Of a DNA stretch of 64,000 bases, positions 3,433-13,451 are shown one piece after another (the first letter of the stretch is position 1; the number at the start of each line of letters is the position of its first letter). A model generated the notes under the pieces. It was not told the origin of the DNA and made no database searches. It saw only the letters and a program-made list of their open reading frames with translations. Location of the stretch: positions 1-64,000 of the forward strand of contig DAIDAO010000052.1 of NCBI GenBank assembly GCA_027310575.1. The letters run 5' to 3'. A program made the position numbers and the translations under genes. The DNA comes from a bacterium (GTDB lineage Archaea > Thermoproteota > Nitrososphaeria > Nitrososphaerales > Gagatemarchaeaceae).

Positions 3433-4383
3433 TCAGGCGCGCGTCAGCGGCAGGTCAAGGACCGTGATGAGCCCAGGCTTTGCGCCTCCGACCCGCTCCG
3501 CCGCGTGGACCGTGAGCGCCACAGTAGCAGAGTCTCCGAAGACGCCCTTCTCGAACCTGAGCTTCAGCTCCGGGTCCCCCTTCACCTCCACGACGTCGAA
3601 GTCGGCAGACGTCATCGTCATCTCCAGGTCCAGTCGGATCAGGCAGTCCCCGGCCCTCCCCTCGGCGAACTGGCGGACGCCCATGACGTAGTCCTCCGAC
3701 CCCACGACAGGGAAGACGCCGTGCTTGAGGCCATCGAGAGGCTTGCCGAGCGATAGCGCGATGAGGTGCGCCGACTCGACCAGGCCGACGTGGCCGAGGA
3801 CCCCCTCCTGCATCTCCTTCTCGAACTTCGCCCGAGTCTGCCCCACGCCGGTCTTGGCCTGGAGCTGCCGCCTCCGCCTGCTCACGTCCACAGACCTCAC
3901 GACGTGAATGCTGGTCGGGTTCTTGGTCGCGGACACGACGAGGGACGGGACCCAGTCCATGACGAAGCCAGGGTTCACTCCCACACCCAGTATCGTGACC
4001 CCCTTCTCCTTCGCGAGCCTGTCCAGGGACGCGGCCGTCTCTCCGCCTGCGTAGGCGGGGTAGGCCATCTCCTCAGAAGTGGTGACCACGTCGAGGCCCG
4101 CGCCTGCTACATAGGCGATGTCGTCCGCGATGTCGGGTATCCTGGACTTCGTAGAAAAGACGGCGACTTCGGCCCCGTCGAGCTGGACGTCCCTGAGCGA
4201 GCCCGCCACCCTAACAGCGAGCGGGAGCCCTGTCAGCTCCGCGACCGTCCTCCCCACCTTCTGCGGATCGTTGTCCACGACCCCTATCACTTCGTGGGAG
4301 CGCTTCAGCATGTAGGCAAGAATCTCGGTGCCAATGGCGCCCATCCCGCACAGGACGACCCTTGCCACGGACCAGCCGAGCAC
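3433..4383 (-). CDS. NAD(P)-binding dehydrogenase, dihydrodipicolinate reductase-like / 2,4-diaminopentanoate dehydrogenase-like
   Basis: Rossmann GMGAIGTE; VTTSEEMAYP...GVGVNPGFVMDWVP typical of this family. Confidence 0.65.
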   Translation of the reverse strand: MLGWSVARVVLCGMGAIGTEILAYMLKRSHEVIGVVDNDPQKVGRTVAELTGLPLAVRVAGSLRDVQLDGAEVAVFSTKSRIPDIADDIAYVAGAGLDVVTTSEEMAYPAYAGGETAASLDRLAKEKGVTILGVGVNPGFVMDWVPSLVVSATKNPTSIHVVRSVDVSRRRRQLQAKTGVGQTRAKFEKEMQEGVLGHVGLVESAHLIALSLGKPLDGLKHGVFPVVGSEDYVMGVRQFAEGRAGDCLIRLDLEMTMTSADFDVVEVKGDPELKLRFEKGVFGDSATVALTVHAAERVGGAKPGLITVLDLPLTRA

Positions 4384-4419
4384 CCCGCGGTCTTATTAAT
4401 GCAAGCCGGAGCCTGTCCT

Positions 4420-4992
4420 TCACCTTAGCTCGAGGAGCCCTGTGTACGAGTCTAACGAGGTGAGGAAGCTTCTCAGCGACCGGACGGGGACCACCGCGAC
4501 CCCCTCCACGAACTTCCCCTCGGGCTCGGACATGCTCAGTATGACCGAGGCGACAGGACGGGGGTCTCCGCTCTTCTCCTTGAGGAGGGCGCTGCGTCTC
4601 AGCTGCGCTTGAGCCACCATGCGGAGCGCCGAGGGCCCCTGCTCCCGGCGATAGTGCTTGCAGTCGACGCACAGGACCATGGACGCCCCGTAGGCCACCA
4701 CGTCAATCTGCGCCTTCGGCCTGGTGAGGACCACGTTGTTTCTCACCTCGTATCCCGAAGCACGGATCAGGGCGCCGGCCAGGCGCTCGAAGCCCTGCCA
4801 TGAGAGGAGCCGGGAGACCTCGTCCGGCTGGAAGTCGAGCTTGAGGAGCGAGTAAGCCACACAGACGGGGGAAGTGTGATCACCCTCGGGGAGCCCCATG
4901 TCCGTTCCGGCTTCAGAGAGCGCCAGCCCGGCCTGCTTCGGTCCGAGCCTGCGCCTCAGGACGTCGATGAGCTGTTCCCCGCCATCGAGCAC
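4420..4992 (-). CDS. Mrr-like PD-(D/E)xK restriction endonuclease-fold protein
   Basis: GFERLAGALIRASGYEVRNN...QIDVVAYGASMVLCVDCKHYRR (D..xCK nuclease core). Confidence 0.6.
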   Translation of the reverse strand: MLDGGEQLIDVLRRRLGPKQAGLALSEAGTDMGLPEGDHTSPVCVAYSLLKLDFQPDEVSRLLSWQGFERLAGALIRASGYEVRNNVVLTRPKAQIDVVAYGASMVLCVDCKHYRREQGPSALRMVAQAQLRRSALLKEKSGDPRPVASVILSMSEPEGKFVEGVAVVPVRSLRSFLTSLDSYTGLLELR

Positions 4993-5117
4993 GGCATTCC
5001 CAGGCGGCGAATGCCGTTCTTAAGCGGGCGCCCGCAGAGAAGAGGACTACGCGGGGGGAGATTGAAAGTGTCTGAAGCACACGGAAGACGATGTAGGGGT
5101 CCTGCGGATAGGCGAGA

Positions 5118-5390
5118 CTACGTCGCATTGCGCATGGAGATGACGGCAGCTATCGCGTAACCCTGGGAGGTGATCCTGTAGTAGTGCTCGCGCGACCCGG
5201 ACTCGGTCGCCGAGACCAACCCGAGGCCCTTCAGCTCGATGAGGGCCCTGCTGACGTGGCTGATGTGCTTGCTCTCTATCGTCGCGAGCTCGGTCGGCGT
5301 GTGCGGCTTGGAAGCCAGCCTCTGGAGAAGCTTGGATCTGACGCTGCTGCTCTCAACGAAGGTTACCGCGGCAGGCTGTATCGCCGTCAT
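5118..5390 (-). CDS. Winged-helix transcriptional regulator
   Basis: RSKLLQRLASKPHTPTELATIESKHISHVSRALIELKGLGLVSATE; wHTH pattern. Confidence 0.65.
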   Translation of the reverse strand: MTAIQPAAVTFVESSSVRSKLLQRLASKPHTPTELATIESKHISHVSRALIELKGLGLVSATESGSREHYYRITSQGYAIAAVISMRNAT

Positions 5391-5486: not shown

Positions 5487-6410
5487 TCACTCCACCAGTC
5501 GGACCGCGCCGACGAGGCCTTTCTGGGCCTGGTACTCCACGGCCTTCACATACGAGTCGTAGACTGTGAACTGGACGGAGCTGAGATAGCTCGCCCTGAC
5601 CGTGTTGTACTCCGCAAGCGCGACTGTCGAGTTCTGGAACGCCAGGACGCGCCTGATGACGACGTTGGCGCCTGTGTCGTCGACTGCGACGAGGGTGTTG
5701 TAAGCCTGGGGGATGACGCCCGGGAAGCCCTGAAGACCGACCGCGAGGTGCTGCGTCCCGTTCACTATGTAGAGCATCTGCCTGACGCTGAGCCTCGAAA
5801 GCAGCGAGTCCTCGGGGGTGACCTGGAGGCAGAGAGTGAGGGCTGACTTCGCGTCCGCGTTTCCTATCGCGAAGGCGATGCCCCGGTCCTCGGGGATGAG
5901 GCCGATCCACCCGTACTGGAACTGCCCCTGCTCTGCGTTCCTCACGTAGTAGATGCTGTTATTCCCGACCATCGTCGGGGGGACCCCGCTCTTGGCGAAG
6001 GCGGTGGTGAAGTTCTTCCATGCGTCTTGATTGACGAAGGCGAATGCCACGCTCTCGTTCGGCCTGTCGAAGGTCACGGACAGCACCGAGTTGATGGAGG
6101 TGGACGGCAGGATGGCTCCGACGTCGATTATGTTGAGCAGGACCTTGTACTGGGTCGGGTAGGATGCGTTGTACGCCCTGATTGCCGTGTAGTTCTCGAA
6201 CCCGAACTGGATGGCGGTCGCAGGGACGTACTTCGCCCACACCGGGCTGTATTCCGGGATTGAAGACGGAAGCTGGCTGACCGGGACTGGAGGGACGAAG
6301 TAGAGGAACCCGAAAGTGGCGGTGATGAGCACACCGAACGTCAGCGCGAAGCCGGCCGCGAACGCCTTCCTGTTCTTCTTTGCCAACTTTCTGCGCTTCC
6401 GACCGCCCAA
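5487..6410 (-). CDS. Hypothetical protein with N-terminal TM anchor and extracellular domain
   Basis: KKNRKAFAAGFALTFGVLITATFGFLYF TM; start inferred at TTG 6410. Confidence 0.55.
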   Translation of the reverse strand: MGGRKRRKLAKKNRKAFAAGFALTFGVLITATFGFLYFVPPVPVSQLPSSIPEYSPVWAKYVPATAIQFGFENYTAIRAYNASYPTQYKVLLNIIDVGAILPSTSINSVLSVTFDRPNESVAFAFVNQDAWKNFTTAFAKSGVPPTMVGNNSIYYVRNAEQGQFQYGWIGLIPEDRGIAFAIGNADAKSALTLCLQVTPEDSLLSRLSVRQMLYIVNGTQHLAVGLQGFPGVIPQAYNTLVAVDDTGANVVIRRVLAFQNSTVALAEYNTVRASYLSSVQFTVYDSYVKAVEYQAQKGLVGAVRLVE

Positions 6411-6422
6411 TGCTTTTAAGCC

Positions 6423-6785
6423 TTGAGAGGCGTCTGGGATATCGTGAAGTACCTCGACCTGGTCGTCTCGTCGCTTGGGGAGTCGGCCGTGTTCTCGGCA
6501 GGGTGCGCGGCTGTCGCCCTGGTGGGGACGGTCGTGCTCGGCGTCCCCTTCCAAGATGGGTTCGGCCTCGTCCTGCTCGTCGTGAGCGCGGGGCTGATGC
6601 TCATAGGAGGCGCGATGAGCTTCGTCACGCCAGGGAAGGTGAGGGCGTTCAACGTGCTCGCGAAACGAAAGGTCAAGATGGAAGCGGACGACTACAGGAG
6701 GACGGAGAACAAGGCGGCGCTCTACTCGCTCACCGGCGTCCTCCTCTTCGCATACTCTCTGCTGCTCGCGGCAGTACTGGCCTAG
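6423..6785 (+). CDS. Small multi-pass membrane protein, hypothetical
   Basis: Three to four hydrophobic segments; intact ORF. Confidence 0.5.
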   Translation: MRGVWDIVKYLDLVVSSLGESAVFSAGCAAVALVGTVVLGVPFQDGFGLVLLVVSAGLMLIGGAMSFVTPGKVRAFNVLAKRKVKMEADDYRRTENKAALYSLTGVLLFAYSLLLAAVLA

Positions 6786-6786
6786 G

Positions 6787-6853
6787 CCCAGCTTACGCTG
6801 GGTCTCTGAAACATAAAGGGGAAAGAGGGAAGCCTACGTTTAGGCAGGCTTCC
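6787..6853. terminator. Pair of inverted repeats between convergent genes (possible bidirectional terminator)
   Basis: CCCAGC-TTAC-GCTGGG (6787-6802) and GGAAGCC...GGCTTCC (6828-6853). Confidence 0.35.
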
Positions 6854-9509
6854 TTCTTGATAGAGCTATGGCTGCTATTCCTAGGATAATGGCTACAGCG
6901 ATCGCCACGTAGGCGATGTTGGTCGCGTTCGAGACGTTGGAGTTGAGCGAGCTTATCTGGCCCGAGAGACCGCTGACGTCATTGCTTACGCCCGTGATCT
7001 GGGTGCCGACTGCCTGGAACTTGCTGTTGACGTTGTTGGTCTGGCTTGTGAACCCTGCGTTGATGTTAGTGGTCAACGCCTGGAACACAGACGCCAGGGT
7101 GCCGATGTTGTACGTCACTACTTGCGTGTAGGCTGTATCGGTCACGTTCAGTGGCCTCTGCGTGGCGAGCGGCGGGACCAGCGCCTCTACTGAAGAGGCT
7201 GAAGCCAGCCCGTCTCTCATCACGAGGTTCTCAGGGAGCCCTGTGAAGAACACCCTGTACTGCACGTTCCCGCTGACGCCTATCGGCATGTAGTTCATGC
7301 TGTAGTAGCCGCCGGCGTTCGTCGCGCCGAGGGCTACCGCTGTCCAGCTGGCGCCGTTGTCAGTGCTCTGCTGCAGCGTGACGGCGAATCCGCCCTCTGT
7401 CGCACCGAGCACTGGGTCGACCGCGAACTGGCCCTGCAGCGTGAACGAGTTACCCAGGATGAACCCAGGCACCGTCACGTTGCCGATTGTTGTTGAAGGG
7501 ATGCTCTGGCAGGTCGGACACTGGTTGGGGTTCACGCCCGTCTTGTATCCAGCAAGCGCGAGGAAGCCCAACGCATCTTTGATGCTGTATGGGTCTGGTG
7601 CGGCGCCAGCCGGATAGGCGAAGGTGAACGAGGTAGCCACCTGTGTGATACCCACCTCGCCTAGCCCACCTAGCAGCTGGTTGACGATGTACTGTCTCGG
7701 GATGGCGTAGCTGATGGCCTCCCTTACCATCCTGGCCGCGTATGCCGCCTCAGCAGGATTGCTCTTGCCGAGTGGCGTCGCGGTCCCGGTCCCGAAGTTC
7801 GGGTTGTTCAGGTTGAGGCCCATCTCCTGCCAGCCGTTCGACGGGTCGTTCACCTTGACGACGGTGAAGCCCGACGATTCGAGAGAGCTTACGTCAGCCG
7901 CGTTGAACTGGTAGTTGCTGTCCAGGAAGTTCACCTGTCCGTTCGACAGGGCCGCCTCGGCGGCGTCCTTGCCGTTGATGTAGACCAGGTAGACAGTCTG
8001 GATCTTGTCCCAGCCGAGGGACTGCAGCCCGGTTATGTTGTAGTAGTTGGGGTTGATGACGTCGGTGCCTACGAGGCCCACCGGGTCATAACCGTGGTAG
8101 ATGTACGCGCCGTCGCCCATCGGTCCGAACACCTTCGGGGCAGTGCCATTGCCGCCAGTGCATGGACCTCCGCAACCCTGAGCGGTGTCGTACGGGACAC
8201 TGACCGAGGTAGTCGCGAGCCCACCGGACGAGCTAACCAGCCCTGATGGCCAGCTAGTCGACCACTCGTTGAATGGAACTGTCTGATAGAGGTGCATCGG
8301 CACCGCACCGATACCAGTGAGCACTGGGTCGGTGAAGACGTACGGGGCCGGCATCGTGAACTGCCAGGTCGTGGCGTTGACTGTCTTGAAGGTGGAGTCG
8401 GCGACGAAGCCCGCGGGCGCAGTCGTGTAGTAAGTACCGTTCGCCACGTAGCGGGTGGTTGAGTTGGAGTAGGTGAACGTCGCGTTGAGCCCCAGAAGGC
8501 CCTGCAGCGTACCTGTCCCGACTTCGCCGACCGCGGTGATGAGGCCGGTCATGAGGTTGTAGATGTAGTCGTTGGCTGTGACCGCGACGCCGTCAGAGAA
8601 GGTGTGGGGTTTCTCCTGGATGGTCCACGTCAGGTGGTCCGCCGATGAAGAAATTCCCGCCACAGTCCCATAGTAGTAGGACGTGGTTCTCGGGTCGAGG
8701 CACTCGCCGCACGCCTGCACCGGGTACGCTAGGTACACGCTGTAGTACGAGTTCTGGGCAGAGTTCGGTGTGTACGTCACCGAAGTGACGTCGCCCGTCT
8801 CTGCGATTTTCAGGACGTTCGCGCCGCTGGAGTCCTTCCAGTGGCTGAAGTCGCTGTTTGCAGTGGCTGCGCTGATCTTGTTGTCAGACCCCCATGACTG
8901 CAGGTTGTTTGCCCACGCGTACACCGAGTACGGGTAGAAGAGGATCATCGCCGGCCTCTCCTGCATCACGATGTTGACCATCTGCTGGATGATTGGAACC
9001 CTGTCGGCCTGTGTGAAGGTCTCAGAGTACGTAGCCGCTAGGTTGTTGTATGTCGAGTTGTCGAAGAAGTAGTAATTGGAGCCAATCGGAGGAACGTCGC
9101 CAGGTCCTGCGTCCCTGTACACGATGACATTCTGGGTCCCAAAGTCGGGTAGTGGCGTACCGCCACCGAACCCGATGAACGCTGCATCCCAGCCTCCGTT
9201 AGCATACGTAGGAGGCGGGCACCCGGATGGACACCCGAACAGGTCATTCAGGAGTACATCAAAGCTCACGAACACCAGGTTGGCCTGGATGGTCAGTGAT
9301 TGGATTGATGACGTGATGATTGAGGCCCACTGCCTCCTGATCGGGTTAGACGTCGGCGCGATCAGGGTCATGGTGAAGAGCGGACCGCTCGTATTGGTGG
9401 TCTGCGCTATCGCTGGGAGTGGGAACGAGGAAGAGATGAGGACGAAGGCGATGACTCCGAGAAGTGCTCCTTGTGCTGTGCCATTAATCGTTGAAGAACG
9501 CATTTTCAA
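6840..9509 (-). CDS. Oligopeptide ABC transporter substrate-binding protein, C-terminally TM-anchored, unusual domain order
   Basis: SBP family-5 segments, signal peptide, C-terminal stalk/coiled-coil plus TM; downstream of oppBCDF-type genes. Confidence 0.8.
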   Translation of the reverse strand: MKMRSSTINGTAQGALLGVIAFVLISSSFPLPAIAQTTNTSGPLFTMTLIAPTSNPIRRQWASIITSSIQSLTIQANLVFVSFDVLLNDLFGCPSGCPPPTYANGGWDAAFIGFGGGTPLPDFGTQNVIVYRDAGPGDVPPIGSNYYFFDNSTYNNLAATYSETFTQADRVPIIQQMVNIVMQERPAMILFYPYSVYAWANNLQSWGSDNKISAATANSDFSHWKDSSGANVLKIAETGDVTSVTYTPNSAQNSYYSVYLAYPVQACGECLDPRTTSYYYGTVAGISSSADHLTWTIQEKPHTFSDGVAVTANDYIYNLMTGLITAVGEVGTGTLQGLLGLNATFTYSNSTTRYVANGTYYTTAPAGFVADSTFKTVNATTWQFTMPAPYVFTDPVLTGIGAVPMHLYQTVPFNEWSTSWPSGLVSSSGGLATTSVSVPYDTAQGCGGPCTGGNGTAPKVFGPMGDGAYIYHGYDPVGLVGTDVINPNYYNITGLQSLGWDKIQTVYLVYINGKDAAEAALSNGQVNFLDSNYQFNAADVSSLESSGFTVVKVNDPSNGWQEMGLNLNNPNFGTGTATPLGKSNPAEAAYAARMVREAISYAIPRQYIVNQLLGGLGEVGITQVATSFTFAYPAGAAPDPYSIKDALGFLALAGYKTGVNPNQCPTCQSIPSTTIGNVTVPGFILGNSFTLQGQFAVDPVLGATEGGFAVTLQQSTDNGASWTAVALGATNAGGYYSMNYMPIGVSGNVQYRVFFTGLPENLVMRDGLASASSVEALVPPLATQRPLNVTDTAYTQVVTYNIGTLASVFQALTTNINAGFTSQTNNVNSKFQAVGTQITGVSNDVSGLSGQISSLNSNVSNATNIAYVAIAVAIILGIAAIALSRRKPA

Positions 9510-9592: not shown

Positions 9593-10588
9593 CTACGCGA
9601 ACTTTTCTGCGAAGTGGCAGGCGACGAGGTGGCCGCTCCCCAGCTCCCGTAGCGGAGGCTCGTCGGTCTTGCATACCTCGGCCGCGTACGGGCACCTGGG
9701 GTGAAACCTGCACCCCGACGGCGGATTGACCGGGCTCGGCACGTCCCCTGGGAGGATGATGCGCTTGGTCTGCCTGACCGGGTCTGGGATCGGGACCGCG
9801 GAGAGCAGCGCCATCGTGTACGGATTGAGCGGCTTGTCGAAGACCTGGTTGACCGGCGCGTATTCGAAGATCTTCCCCAGGTACATCACGGCGACGAACT
9901 GGCTGACCTGGCGGACCGAGCTCAGGTCGTGGGAGATGTAGAGGAAGGAGATTCCGGTCTTCTTCTGGAGGTCTTCGAGCAGGTTCAATATCTGGGCCCT
10001 GATCGACACGTCCAGCGACGAGACTGGTTCGTCCGCGACTATGAACTTCGGCTCCGTGGCGAGCGCCCTGGCTATGGAGATGCGCTGCCTCTGGCCCCCG
10101 GAGAACTCGTGCGGGTATCGCTCTGCGTGGTACTCTTCCAACCCGACGAGCTTGAGGAGCGAGTAGACGCGGTCCTTCCATTCTACATGGGGGATGTGCT
10201 TGTGAATGACGAACGGCTCAGAGATTATGTCGAAGACAGTCATCCTGGGGTCGAGGGACCCATACGGGTTCTGGAACACCATCTGCATGCTCCTCCTGAG
10301 CGCCAGCTTCTCCGAACGCGGGGCCTTCTTGAGGCTCTCGTGCACCTCCTTCCCTTCGAATAGGACCTTCCCTGAATCCCCCGTCTCAAGGTCCAGCATC
10401 ACCTTCCCGGTGGTGGTCTTGCCACACCCGCTCTCCCCGACCAGGCCGAGGGTCTCCCCCCTCCCGACCTTGAATGAGACATTGTCGATGGCGTGGACGT
10501 CCCCCACCTTCTTCTTCAGGAGCACCCCCCTCTGATAGACGGGGAAGTACTTCACGAGGTCCTGGACCTCGACTAGCGCCTCTGGCAT
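9593..10588 (-). CDS. Oligopeptide ABC transporter ATP-binding protein (OppF-like)
   Basis: Walker A GESGCGKTT, signature FSGGQRQRISIARAL, C-terminal PSGCRFHPRCPYA. Confidence 0.92.
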   Translation of the reverse strand: MPEALVEVQDLVKYFPVYQRGVLLKKKVGDVHAIDNVSFKVGRGETLGLVGESGCGKTTTGKVMLDLETGDSGKVLFEGKEVHESLKKAPRSEKLALRRSMQMVFQNPYGSLDPRMTVFDIISEPFVIHKHIPHVEWKDRVYSLLKLVGLEEYHAERYPHEFSGGQRQRISIARALATEPKFIVADEPVSSLDVSIRAQILNLLEDLQKKTGISFLYISHDLSSVRQVSQFVAVMYLGKIFEYAPVNQVFDKPLNPYTMALLSAVPIPDPVRQTKRIILPGDVPSPVNPPSGCRFHPRCPYAAEVCKTDEPPLRELGSGHLVACHFAEKFA

Positions 10589-11571
10589 CACGCCTTCCTC
10601 CTCAGGTCGATCTCCTTCCAGCGGTGGCAGGCCACCAGGCGCCTCTGCCCCGACTCTTCGAGGGGCGGGATCTGGTCGATGCAGATCTGCTTGGCATACG
10701 CGCAGCGCGGGTGGAACCTGCACCCGCTGGGCGGGGTGATTAGGTTCGGGATCCCTCCGCCGATCGGGACGAGGACCTCCTTCCTGTCGAGGCGCGGGAC
10801 GGACGCCAGCAGCGCCGCGGTGTATGGGTGCTTGGGGGTCTGGAAGACCTCGAGGGTGGACGCTTCCTCGGCCACCTTCCCTGCATAGAGCACCACGACC
10901 CTCTTGGTCATCTCGGCTATGAGCCCCATGTCGTGCGTGATGAGGATGAGTGACATGTTCAGCTGCTTCCCCAGGGTCTTCAGGAGGTCGAGGACCTGGG
11001 CCTGAATAGTGACGTCGAGGTTCGTAGTGGGCTCGTCTGCTACGAGGAGCTCCGGCTCGCCGGCGAGTGCGCGCGCGATGGCCACCCTCTGCTTCATCCC
11101 TCCGCTCAGCTCATGGGGGTATGAGCGCATCCGCGTGTCTGCCTCGGGGATGCCCACGAGCTTGAGCAGCTTCACCCCCTTGTCCCAGGCCTGATCCTTC
11201 GTGTCCTCGAAGTGCGTCCGGATGACCTCCACGAGCTGGTTCCCGACGGTGAAGAGCGGGTCGAGGGAGGAGTTGGGGTCCTGGGAGACGTAGCCGATCT
11301 TCTTGCCTCTGATCTTCCGCATCTCCTTCTCCGACTTGTGATCGAGCTCTTCTCCTTTGAAGAAGATCTTGCCGCTCACAATCTTCCCCGGCCTTGACAC
11401 TATCCCCATTGCCGCGAGGACGGTCACCGTCTTGCCCGACCCGGACTCGCCCACCAGGCCCAGCGGCTCGCCTTCGTTGGCAACGAACGACACGCCGTCG
11501 ACGGCCTTGACGACCCCGGCTTCCGTGTAGAAGTACGTCCTAAGGTCGTCTACCCTGAGTAGCTCTCCCAA
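10588..11571 (-). CDS. Oligopeptide ABC transporter ATP-binding protein (OppD-like)
   Basis: GESGSGKTV, LSGGMKQRVAIARAL, GCRFHPRCAYAKQIC. Confidence 0.92.
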   Translation of the reverse strand: MGELLRVDDLRTYFYTEAGVVKAVDGVSFVANEGEPLGLVGESGSGKTVTVLAAMGIVSRPGKIVSGKIFFKGEELDHKSEKEMRKIRGKKIGYVSQDPNSSLDPLFTVGNQLVEVIRTHFEDTKDQAWDKGVKLLKLVGIPEADTRMRSYPHELSGGMKQRVAIARALAGEPELLVADEPTTNLDVTIQAQVLDLLKTLGKQLNMSLILITHDMGLIAEMTKRVVVLYAGKVAEEASTLEVFQTPKHPYTAALLASVPRLDRKEVLVPIGGGIPNLITPPSGCRFHPRCAYAKQICIDQIPPLEESGQRRLVACHRWKEIDLRRKA

Positions 11572-11577
11572 CTCTTC

Positions 11578-12483
11578 TTACTCCCTGATTCTCGGGTTCA
11601 GAGCGTCTGACAGACCGTCCCCTAAGAGGTTGAACCCCAGCACGGCTACCACTACCGCTATGCCGGGGAAGACCGACACCCACCAGGAGGTCCTTACATA
11701 CGAGAATCCCTCCTGGAGGAGAAGACCCCAGGTAGACGTGGAGGGGTCACCGAACCCGAGGAAGCTGATCACCACCTCGGTAAGGATGTTCCCGGCCACG
11801 AGGAGGCTGGCCAGCACGATTATGGGGGACAGGACGTTGAGCAGTATGTGCCTGAACAGGATCCTGGTGTTGCTCGCGCCGAGCGACCTGGCCGCCTGCA
11901 CGAATTCAAGTTCCTTGATTCTCAGTATCTCCCCCCTGGTCACGAACGCTATGGTGGGCCACCCGAATATCCCAAGGATGACGACGATCAGCGTGAGCCC
12001 CAGCCCGTGGGCGACCAATAGCTGCCCGATCCTCGCGAACAGGAGTATGAGGATGAGGACCGGGATTACGAAGAATATCTGGGTGATCCCGAGGAGCAGG
12101 GCCCCGGACACGCCGCTCCTGTAGCCTGCGAGAGCACCTACGAGCAGCCCTATGAGCACAGATATCGCGGTCGCCACCACTCCGACGTACAGGTCTCCCA
12201 GCGCCCCGTGGAGGATCTCTGAGAAGACGTCTATCCCCGACGGCTCGGTCCCGAGGGGGTGGGCCCAGTTCTGGAACGGCGGAAGGTCGGCGCAGCTGTT
12301 GTAGAGGCACCAGAAGCTCCTCGACGGCAGCGGGGCGAAGAACACGCCGTACACAGCTACGAAGATGAAGAAGCCCACGACCGTCGCCCCGGCCAGAGCG
12401 GACTTGTTCTTCCGGAACCTCCGCCACGCGACTGCCGCCTGACTGGCACCGCGCTGCTTCGTCGCAGGCTTGGCCTCTGTCAC
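11578..12483 (-). CDS. Oligopeptide ABC transporter permease (OppC-like)
   Basis: PLGTEPSGIDVFSEILHG and EFVQAARSLGASNTRILFRHILLN permease motif. Confidence 0.92.
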   Translation of the reverse strand: MTEAKPATKQRGASQAAVAWRRFRKNKSALAGATVVGFFIFVAVYGVFFAPLPSRSFWCLYNSCADLPPFQNWAHPLGTEPSGIDVFSEILHGALGDLYVGVVATAISVLIGLLVGALAGYRSGVSGALLLGITQIFFVIPVLILILLFARIGQLLVAHGLGLTLIVVILGIFGWPTIAFVTRGEILRIKELEFVQAARSLGASNTRILFRHILLNVLSPIIVLASLLVAGNILTEVVISFLGFGDPSTSTWGLLLQEGFSYVRTSWWVSVFPGIAVVVAVLGFNLLGDGLSDALNPRIRE

Positions 12484-13451
12484 GTAATCCTCACCCTAGG
12501 GTCGAGCACTGCGTATGCAAGATCGGTGACGATGTTGGCTATCAGCACCATTATCGTGATTATCATCGTGATCCCGAGGACGGTGGGCAGGTCCAGCCGG
12601 GTCGCGGCGAAGACGAAGGCCTTGCCGAGCCCGGGCCAGGAGAACGTGGTCTCCAGTGCGGGCGCGCCCCCCAGCAGGACGCCGAAGCTGAGCCCCACTA
12701 TCGTCACGACGGGGGTGATTGCGTTCTTCAGGGCGTGCTTGAAGGTCACCTTGAACTCCGACACGCCGCTTGCCCTGGCGGCGAGCACGTAGTCCTGCCT
12801 GAGCACCTCCAGCATGTTCGCCCTGACGAGCCTCGTGATTGTTGCGATGGAGACCAGCGTGAGGACGGCCAGAGGCAGGATGATGTGCGCCAGGGCGTCC
12901 ATGAACGGAGACCCCCACCAGTATGGCGGGTAGGAAGAGTAAGCGCCGAAGGCGGGGAGCCAATGCAGATAGTAACTAAACACGATGATGCCCATTATCC
13001 CGATCCAGAAGGTCGGCATCGAGATTCCGAAGATCGCAGTCGTGGTTATCGCGTAGTCACCCTTCGTGTACTGGTGCTTGGCGGAGTAGATCCCGACCGG
13101 TACTCCAATCGCCAACGCCAGGGCGAGCGCGGGAATCTGCAGCTCTAGCGTGGTGCCGATCCAGGGGACGATGAGGGCGACTACAGACCCGGTGTACAGG
13201 GACTGGCCGAGATTGCCGTGCAGGAAGTCATTCAGCCAGTAGAAGTATCTGATGTATACGGGCAGGTCCTCGTGGAAGTAGAGTCTCAGATATTCCAGCT
13301 GGGCGGGGGAGATGTTCCTTATCCCGAACTTCACGATCTGAACGGGATCGCCGGCCGCGTTTGTAATCAGGTAGGTGATGACCGATACTGCGAGGAACAC
13401 CGGGATAGCGAAGAGGAGCCTGCGGATTACGTAGTTGACAAGCCCACCCAT
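12480..13451 (-). CDS. Oligopeptide ABC transporter permease (OppB-like)
   Basis: MxxYVIRRLLFAIPVFLAVSVITY...LRQDYVLAARASGVSEFKVTFKHALKNA. Confidence 0.92.
   Translation of the reverse strand: MGGLVNYVIRRLLFAIPVFLAVSVITYLITNAAGDPVQIVKFGIRNISPAQLEYLRLYFHEDLPVYIRYFYWLNDFLHGNLGQSLYTGSVVALIVPWIGTTLELQIPALALALAIGVPVGIYSAKHQYTKGDYAITTTAIFGISMPTFWIGIMGIIVFSYYLHWLPAFGAYSSYPPYWWGSPFMDALAHIILPLAVLTLVSIATITRLVRANMLEVLRQDYVLAARASGVSEFKVTFKHALKNAITPVVTIVGLSFGVLLGGAPALETTFSWPGLGKAFVFAATRLDLPTVLGITMIITIMVLIANIVTDLAYAVLDPRVRIT

Follow-up and report, generated by a model that had tools for sequence, protein, structure and literature searches.

The permuted gene and its operon

The window, a 64,000-nucleotide stretch of a contig from an archaeon of the Gagatemarchaeaceae, contains an operon in the order OppB-C-D-F-A, the last gene of which encodes a family-5 substrate-binding protein (SBP). 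This open reading frame (ORF) is intact and specifies 889 residues from a TTG start codon, with an ATG two codons downstream. Positions of the operon genes, of the parts of the SBP and of genes in other genomes are listed in Table 1. An Rfam search of the window yielded no matches.

Table 1. Features of the window and of related loci
Feature	Position	Strand	Basis or remark
Permuted (type 1) family-5 SBP, 889 aa	6840..9509	-	ORF, Pfam, profile order
Signal peptide (~residues 1-36)	9402..9509	-	hydrophobic N-terminus ending PLPAIAQ, kept in relatives; low pLDDT
Relocated canonical C-terminal segment (~residues 44-222)	8844..9380	-	AppA 357-504; DppA C-terminal region; Foldseek
Canonical N-terminal and middle part (~residues 228-657), ending LGFLALAGY	7539..8828	-	Pfam SBP_bac_5; AppA 19-346
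Insert NPNFGTGTATPLGKSNPAEAAYAA (~residues 566-596), marker of the main permuted clade	7720..7813	-	alignment rows
Beta-rich stalk domain (~residues 673-759)	7233..7493	-	AlphaFold strands 671-757 of the model
Long helix (~residues 805-886)	6852..7097	-	AlphaFold helix 803-884 of the model
ABC ATPase, OppF/DppF type	9593..10723	-	Pfam ABC_tran + oligo_HPY
ABC ATPase, OppD/DppD type	10588..11571	-	Pfam ABC_tran + oligo_HPY
Permease, OppC/DppC type	11578..12483	-	Pfam BPD_transp_1 + OppC_N
Permease, OppB/DppB type	12480..13451	-	Pfam BPD_transp_1
355-aa protein, gene after the SBP gene	5487..6554	-	one N-terminal TM region; no Pfam match
Type 2 member	L061:9728-12133	-	neighbour of a type 1 gene
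Type 2 relatives			L195-L217, L219, L220, L222
Canonical-order paralogue L120, Bathyarchaeota BA_19, VBBN01000058.1	L120:3301-5426	+	
Outliers with type 1 cut			L221 = G275:C4; L143 = G446:C49; L157 = G573:C468; L142 = G395:C38
Monooxygenase-linked bacterial loci			L104, L108, L109, L114, L119, L122, L124, L125, L127, L128, L130, L161, L162

An earlier note, made from the sequence alone, had claimed that the binding domain encoded at 6840-9509 is circularly permuted, with the last-lobe segment (8835-9380) directly following the signal peptide and the motif LGFLALAGYKT reached near 7540. These coordinates were right to within a few codons, and the permuted order was confirmed by sequence, profile and structure tests. 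The relocated segment makes up the latter half of lobe II and leads the chain back into lobe I. The note had further described a stalk, a coiled coil and a C-terminal transmembrane (TM) segment after the AGY helix, and in the AlphaFold model the strands of the stalk are followed by a long helix, in which a coiled coil continues into a predicted C-terminal TM anchor whose hydrophobic end is conserved in relatives.

Order and completeness of the binding domain

Pfam SBP_bac_5 matched residues 287-659 with profile positions 11-282 of 368 (95.5 bits compared to a cut-off of 32.4); the last 86 profile positions were absent on the C-terminal side. We also used a canonical-order profile built only from 41 canonical-order SBPs. 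Positions 366-507 of this profile fell on residues 53-213 of the window protein, right after the signal peptide as the note had held, and positions 195-363 fell on residues 470-666, both in the numbering of the stop-to-stop ORF, which runs 7 residues ahead of the 889-residue numbering. With the window protein itself this test missed part of the divergent N-terminal block, a part that Pfam covers, and in relatives the second-block match widened to positions 38-363, with positions 364-507 supplied by the first block. All parts of the fold were present once in the permuted proteins, with no profile position duplicated. From these matches we conclude that, at the level of sequence, the order in the window protein is opposite to the canonical one and nothing is present twice.

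A family profile made from 21 relatives was mapped onto Bacillus subtilis AppA (1xoc). Model positions 213-312 and 356-613 aligned with AppA residues 19-116 and 126-346, respectively, and positions 35-196 aligned with residues 357-504 (i-Evalue 7e-21), indicating that the first segment is the part that comes after the LLxxAGY helix in a canonical SBP. With Escherichia coli DppA, matches to the N-segment profile (39-245 and 318-381) were followed by a match to the C-segment profile (395-525, E = 4e-11). When the two segment profiles were applied to SBP5 ORFs, the C segment came first in 131, last in 47 and mixed in none, redundant loci being included in these counts. The canonical profile wrapped at 359|364, within a few residues, in 124 ORFs, a count in which some genes appear twice. 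On DppA the cut site corresponds to the loop at 368-371 of the precursor, between helix PEKAKALLKEAG and strand FSIDLWA. A profile of the junction gave an unbroken match in permuted proteins and split halves, in the opposite order, in canonical paralogues of the same genomes; the match was unbroken for 1 of 31 hits in Salipiger marinus, 1 of 75 in Rhodovarius and 1 of 29 in Sinirhodobacter. A phmmer search of the PDB with the single window protein gave no match, and the family profile gave 111 sequences. The window protein was not among the matches of the NCBIfam DppA model at E 0.001, and its permuted relatives scored far under the curated cut-off.

Structure predictions were carried out with alignments that left out rows from the genome-search loci. 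The full-length AlphaFold model had a mean pLDDT of 81 and a pTM of 0.73; pLDDT exceeded 85 over most of the binding domain and was mostly 85-96 in residues 40-226. Modelled alone, residues 40-226 folded badly (pLDDT 70, pTM 0.54) and strands 107-112 and 185-197 were lost, which argues against an independent domain. A Foldseek search of the PDB with the full model returned only cluster C SBPs as top matches (AapF, AppA, NikZ and others) at a TM score of ~0.5 to canonical SBPs; coverage was partial because the program depends on sequence order. The best 50 PDB matches of the N-terminal segment alone were all family-5 SBPs or pieces thereof. Taken together, these models suggest that the N-terminal segment belongs to lobe II and does not form a domain of its own.

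Distribution, a second cut point and L120

Within the same GTDB family, strong matches were present in nine further genomes, one of which is a single contig (G019); seven were full-length and collinear. The full-length relatives are 31-67% identical to the window protein. A single-sequence scan of genome contigs with the window protein found no relative. We identified 79 named loci with this order (type 1) by scanning species-representative genomes with a pattern derived from a 10-row alignment; the scan picked out loci that carry two short motifs, the insert GTG[TV][AD]TPLG and one other. The order was found in about 30 of 398 Thermoproteota genomes in a phylum-wide search. Archaeal type 1 taxa comprise Thaumarchaeota (Nitrososphaeria), Bathyarchaeota, Methanomethylicota/Methanosuratincola, a Marsarchaeota G2 and Heimdallarchaeota; the bacterial taxa are Alphaproteobacteria (Salipiger, Sinirhodobacter, Rhodovarius, Paracraurococcus, Acidisphaera and others), in which type 1 was rare in a sample of 289. 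The permuted order is thus that of a conserved clade spread over many genomes. The insert motif GTGxxTP/CP occurred in 83 of 86 permuted rows compared to 1 of 42 canonical-order rows (L120, see below), a count that is partly biased in that the search pattern itself selected for the insert.

Among archaeal type 1 ORFs, 98 of 107 have a hydrophobic TM anchor at the C-terminus; the tail beyond the AGY helix has a median length of 116 residues. The 17 bacterial type 1 ORFs end 1-10 residues (median 2) past AGY without an anchor; one of them is the Salipiger marinus DSM 26424 protein (L127:7791-9650). Tat-like RR motifs were read by eye in the signal region of most bacterial proteins. Short type 1 members of about 600-640 aa are devoid of the stalk. 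In most archaeal and bacterial loci on long enough contigs OppBCDF genes adjoin the permuted gene, Heimdallarchaeota being the main exception.

Other features of these loci were observed as well. In four Heimdallarchaeota loci (L100, L107, L126 and L135), two or three permuted SBP genes lie close together on one contig, and the flanking sequence retrieved mostly shows no permease gene next to them. In 13 bacterial loci (Table 1) a gene for an LLM-class flavin monooxygenase directly follows the permuted SBP gene; the enzyme is annotated as nitrilotriacetate monooxygenase in Neorhizobium. This arrangement suggests an uptake-and-oxidation cassette in bacteria. A family-5 SBP match at G104:C28:80180-81346 lies within an exceptionally long open frame (2064 aa).

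A second permutation (type 2) affects the same SBP fold. Here the cut follows the GTGPY...NPxYW block (AppA 209|212), ~135 positions before the type 1 cut, such that the canonical middle part comes first and the canonical N-terminal part last, up to GTGPYxFxExKPGEYxLLxxNPxYF. The canonical profile wrapped at 224|226 in 25 ORFs of this type. Positions 377-577 of a type 2 profile mapped to AppA 22-209, and positions 54-348 mapped to AppA 212-502. An Ig-like stalk and/or a TM anchor follows the binding part, and OppB/OppC genes adjoin. Type 2 proteins form their own group in the tree and, being found in about 30 of 398 Thermoproteota genomes, are as common there as type 1.

In a tree based on re-ordered alignments, permuted and canonical proteins separated with two changes compared to 36 for shuffled labels, and the main permuted clade was starred at 99-100. 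The exceptional L120, which accounts for one of the two changes, is a canonical-order paralogue placed within the clade. It shares 63% (N part) and 74% (C part) identity with permuted paralogues of its own genome and has the clade insert. In L120 the two pieces lie end to end in the canonical order (3469-4692, then 4692-5237), and the reading frame is broken exactly at their joint. We rejected L120 as the ancestral form because each half groups with the permuted paralogues from the same genome, and its placement outside those paralogues was rejected with a p-AU of 4e-45. Judged by sequence, L120 appears to have been permuted a second time, back to the ancestral order, in a single case; given the frame break, it may be a pseudogene or contain a sequencing error.

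The type 1 cut was also seen outside the main clade, in L221/L240, L143, L157, L142 and L117:952-2958. Those outliers that were read do not contain the main-clade insert.

The type 1 cut may therefore have more than one origin. We tentatively suggest, with somewhat less than even confidence, that archaeal cluster C SBPs were permuted at two lobe II loops, at least once each, that one lineage went back to the canonical order, and that the tether moved from lobe I to lobe II each time, so that permutation would be a recurrent and reversible means of re-mounting an SBP on the membrane.

Function of the permuted protein and comparison with known systems

The window protein is very probably the membrane-anchored SBP subunit of an Opp/Dpp-type (type I) ABC importer, with a binding domain that is one complete, circularly permuted cluster C SBP fold. 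This reading builds on the observed order, completeness and conservation of the blocks, on the operon and on the predicted anchor. The chain of the binding domain opens behind the LLxxAGY helix, in a loop of lobe II, and the old C-terminus continues straight into the old N-terminus within lobe I. Fold, ligand cleft and both hinge crossings are expected to persist, so that capture of the ligand, presumably peptide-like, and its delivery to OppBC should work as in DppA/OppA. Both chain ends would now be located in lobe II, and as a consequence the stalk, coiled coil and TM anchor would emerge from that lobe and not from lobe I. In the simplest mechanism, the protein would perform ordinary two-lobed capture and delivery with its tether moved to lobe II. 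A tandem duplication with later loss of the outer parts could have given rise to such a gene. In the DppABCDF structure a scoop motif of DppB enters the cleft and contacts both lobes (PMC12136057); the permutation should not hinder entry of such a motif. R383 and D436 of E. coli DppA clamp the dipeptide (PMC12136057). Since all 86 permuted rows have a gap at R383 and show no conservation at D436, we do not call the permuted proteins dipeptide binders.

The N-terminal segment, with ~180 residues and an SBP similarity that is recognizable alone, could be taken for a second, truncated SBP or for an independent additional domain ahead of a complete canonical SBP. However, no truncated SBP was found in front of a complete one. 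The two blocks sum to one SBP without repeating any profile position, and the second block stops at positions 359-364 in the 124 wrapped ORFs, which leaves the part that follows without the canonical C-terminal third, exactly what the first block supplies. As the segment also folds poorly by itself and bacterial members stop just past AGY, we regard an additional domain as very unlikely. Still less credible is an artefact of assembly or binning in which two parts of an ordinary SBP gene were exchanged. Although the window comes from a draft genome of 61 contigs, the same order recurs in dozens of independent genomes from many families, including the single-contig G019, as well as in cultured bacterial strains and in plasmid records listed as complete.

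The stalk and coiled coil of the window protein and its relatives, and the DppA ligand residues that were not kept, would also suit a protein that has ceased to be part of a transporter and acts as a stalked cell-surface receptor or adhesin with an SBP fold. This possibility is improbable, since OppBCDF lies alongside in the window and, outside Heimdallarchaeota, in most type 1 loci on long enough contigs, and since the short members lack the stalk. A separate question is whether the permutation is an adaptation that moved the tether from lobe I to lobe II and not a neutral product of duplication and deletion. By the domain borders of DppA, both cut points fall in lobe II, and most archaeal members of both types have a C-terminal TM segment; both points favour an adaptation. 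The permuted cluster B protein TpMglB-2 is likewise tethered (PMC4990184). However, alphaproteobacterial members are cut at the same place and end right after AGY with no anchor, and L120 combines canonical order with a C-terminal anchor. We regard an adaptive origin as less likely than not.

The preferred reading, a permuted transporter subunit, places the window protein close to the cluster C/family-5 SBPs (SBP_bac_5; AppA 1xoc, DppA 1dpp, OppA), with which it shares the conserved blocks, the OppBCDF partners and all structural matches of both the whole model and the N-terminal segment. It differs from them in that the canonical C-terminal third comes first, the termini lie in lobe II, the insert GTGxxTPLG is added, and a stalk and anchor follow the AGY helix. 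We conclude that it is a permuted subclass of the family-5 SBPs and not a standard member. Two of these proteins are labelled simply as substrate-binding proteins in public records. Because family profiles match such proteins only in part, both protein ends look like unknown domains in annotation. Archaeal di- and oligopeptide SBPs possess a signal peptide, a C-terminal stalk and TM anchor, and an OppBCDF operon. Their anchor follows the canonical C-terminus, in lobe I (L120 has this canonical layout), whereas that of the permuted protein is attached behind the LLxxAGY helix, in lobe II.

TpMglB-2 (Tp0684) of Treponema pallidum is a circularly permuted cluster B glucose-binding SBP, termed 'Type Ic / cluster Bc', in which the permutation is conserved among relatives and was proposed to be linked with membrane tethering (PMC4990184). 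The window protein resembles it as a natural permutation with a membrane tether, here predicted, and a role in an ABC importer, here probable. It is not a cluster Bc member, as all of its sequence and fold matches are to cluster C. TpMglB-2 belongs to cluster B, binds sugars and has a type I fold; a fourth hinge crossing is reported to be required by its permutation, and conservation of the permuted part is reported to be low (13% identity; PMC4990184). By contrast, the homology of the permuted segment is clear here, and on the known topology no extra hinge crossing would be needed. A search of open-access literature revealed no published case of a cluster C SBP that is naturally permuted. As TpMglB-2 is known, we rate the cluster C permutation as a new form of a known phenomenon; the second cut point in this family was apparently undescribed before. 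Circular permutation has long served to test protein folding and the way in which binding proteins are held by ABC importers. The clear homology, two cut points, occurrence in several phyla and apparent reversal provide a natural experiment on whether the tethering lobe matters, and they extend the phenomenon from one cluster B sugar-binding family to a large peptide-binding family and to archaea.
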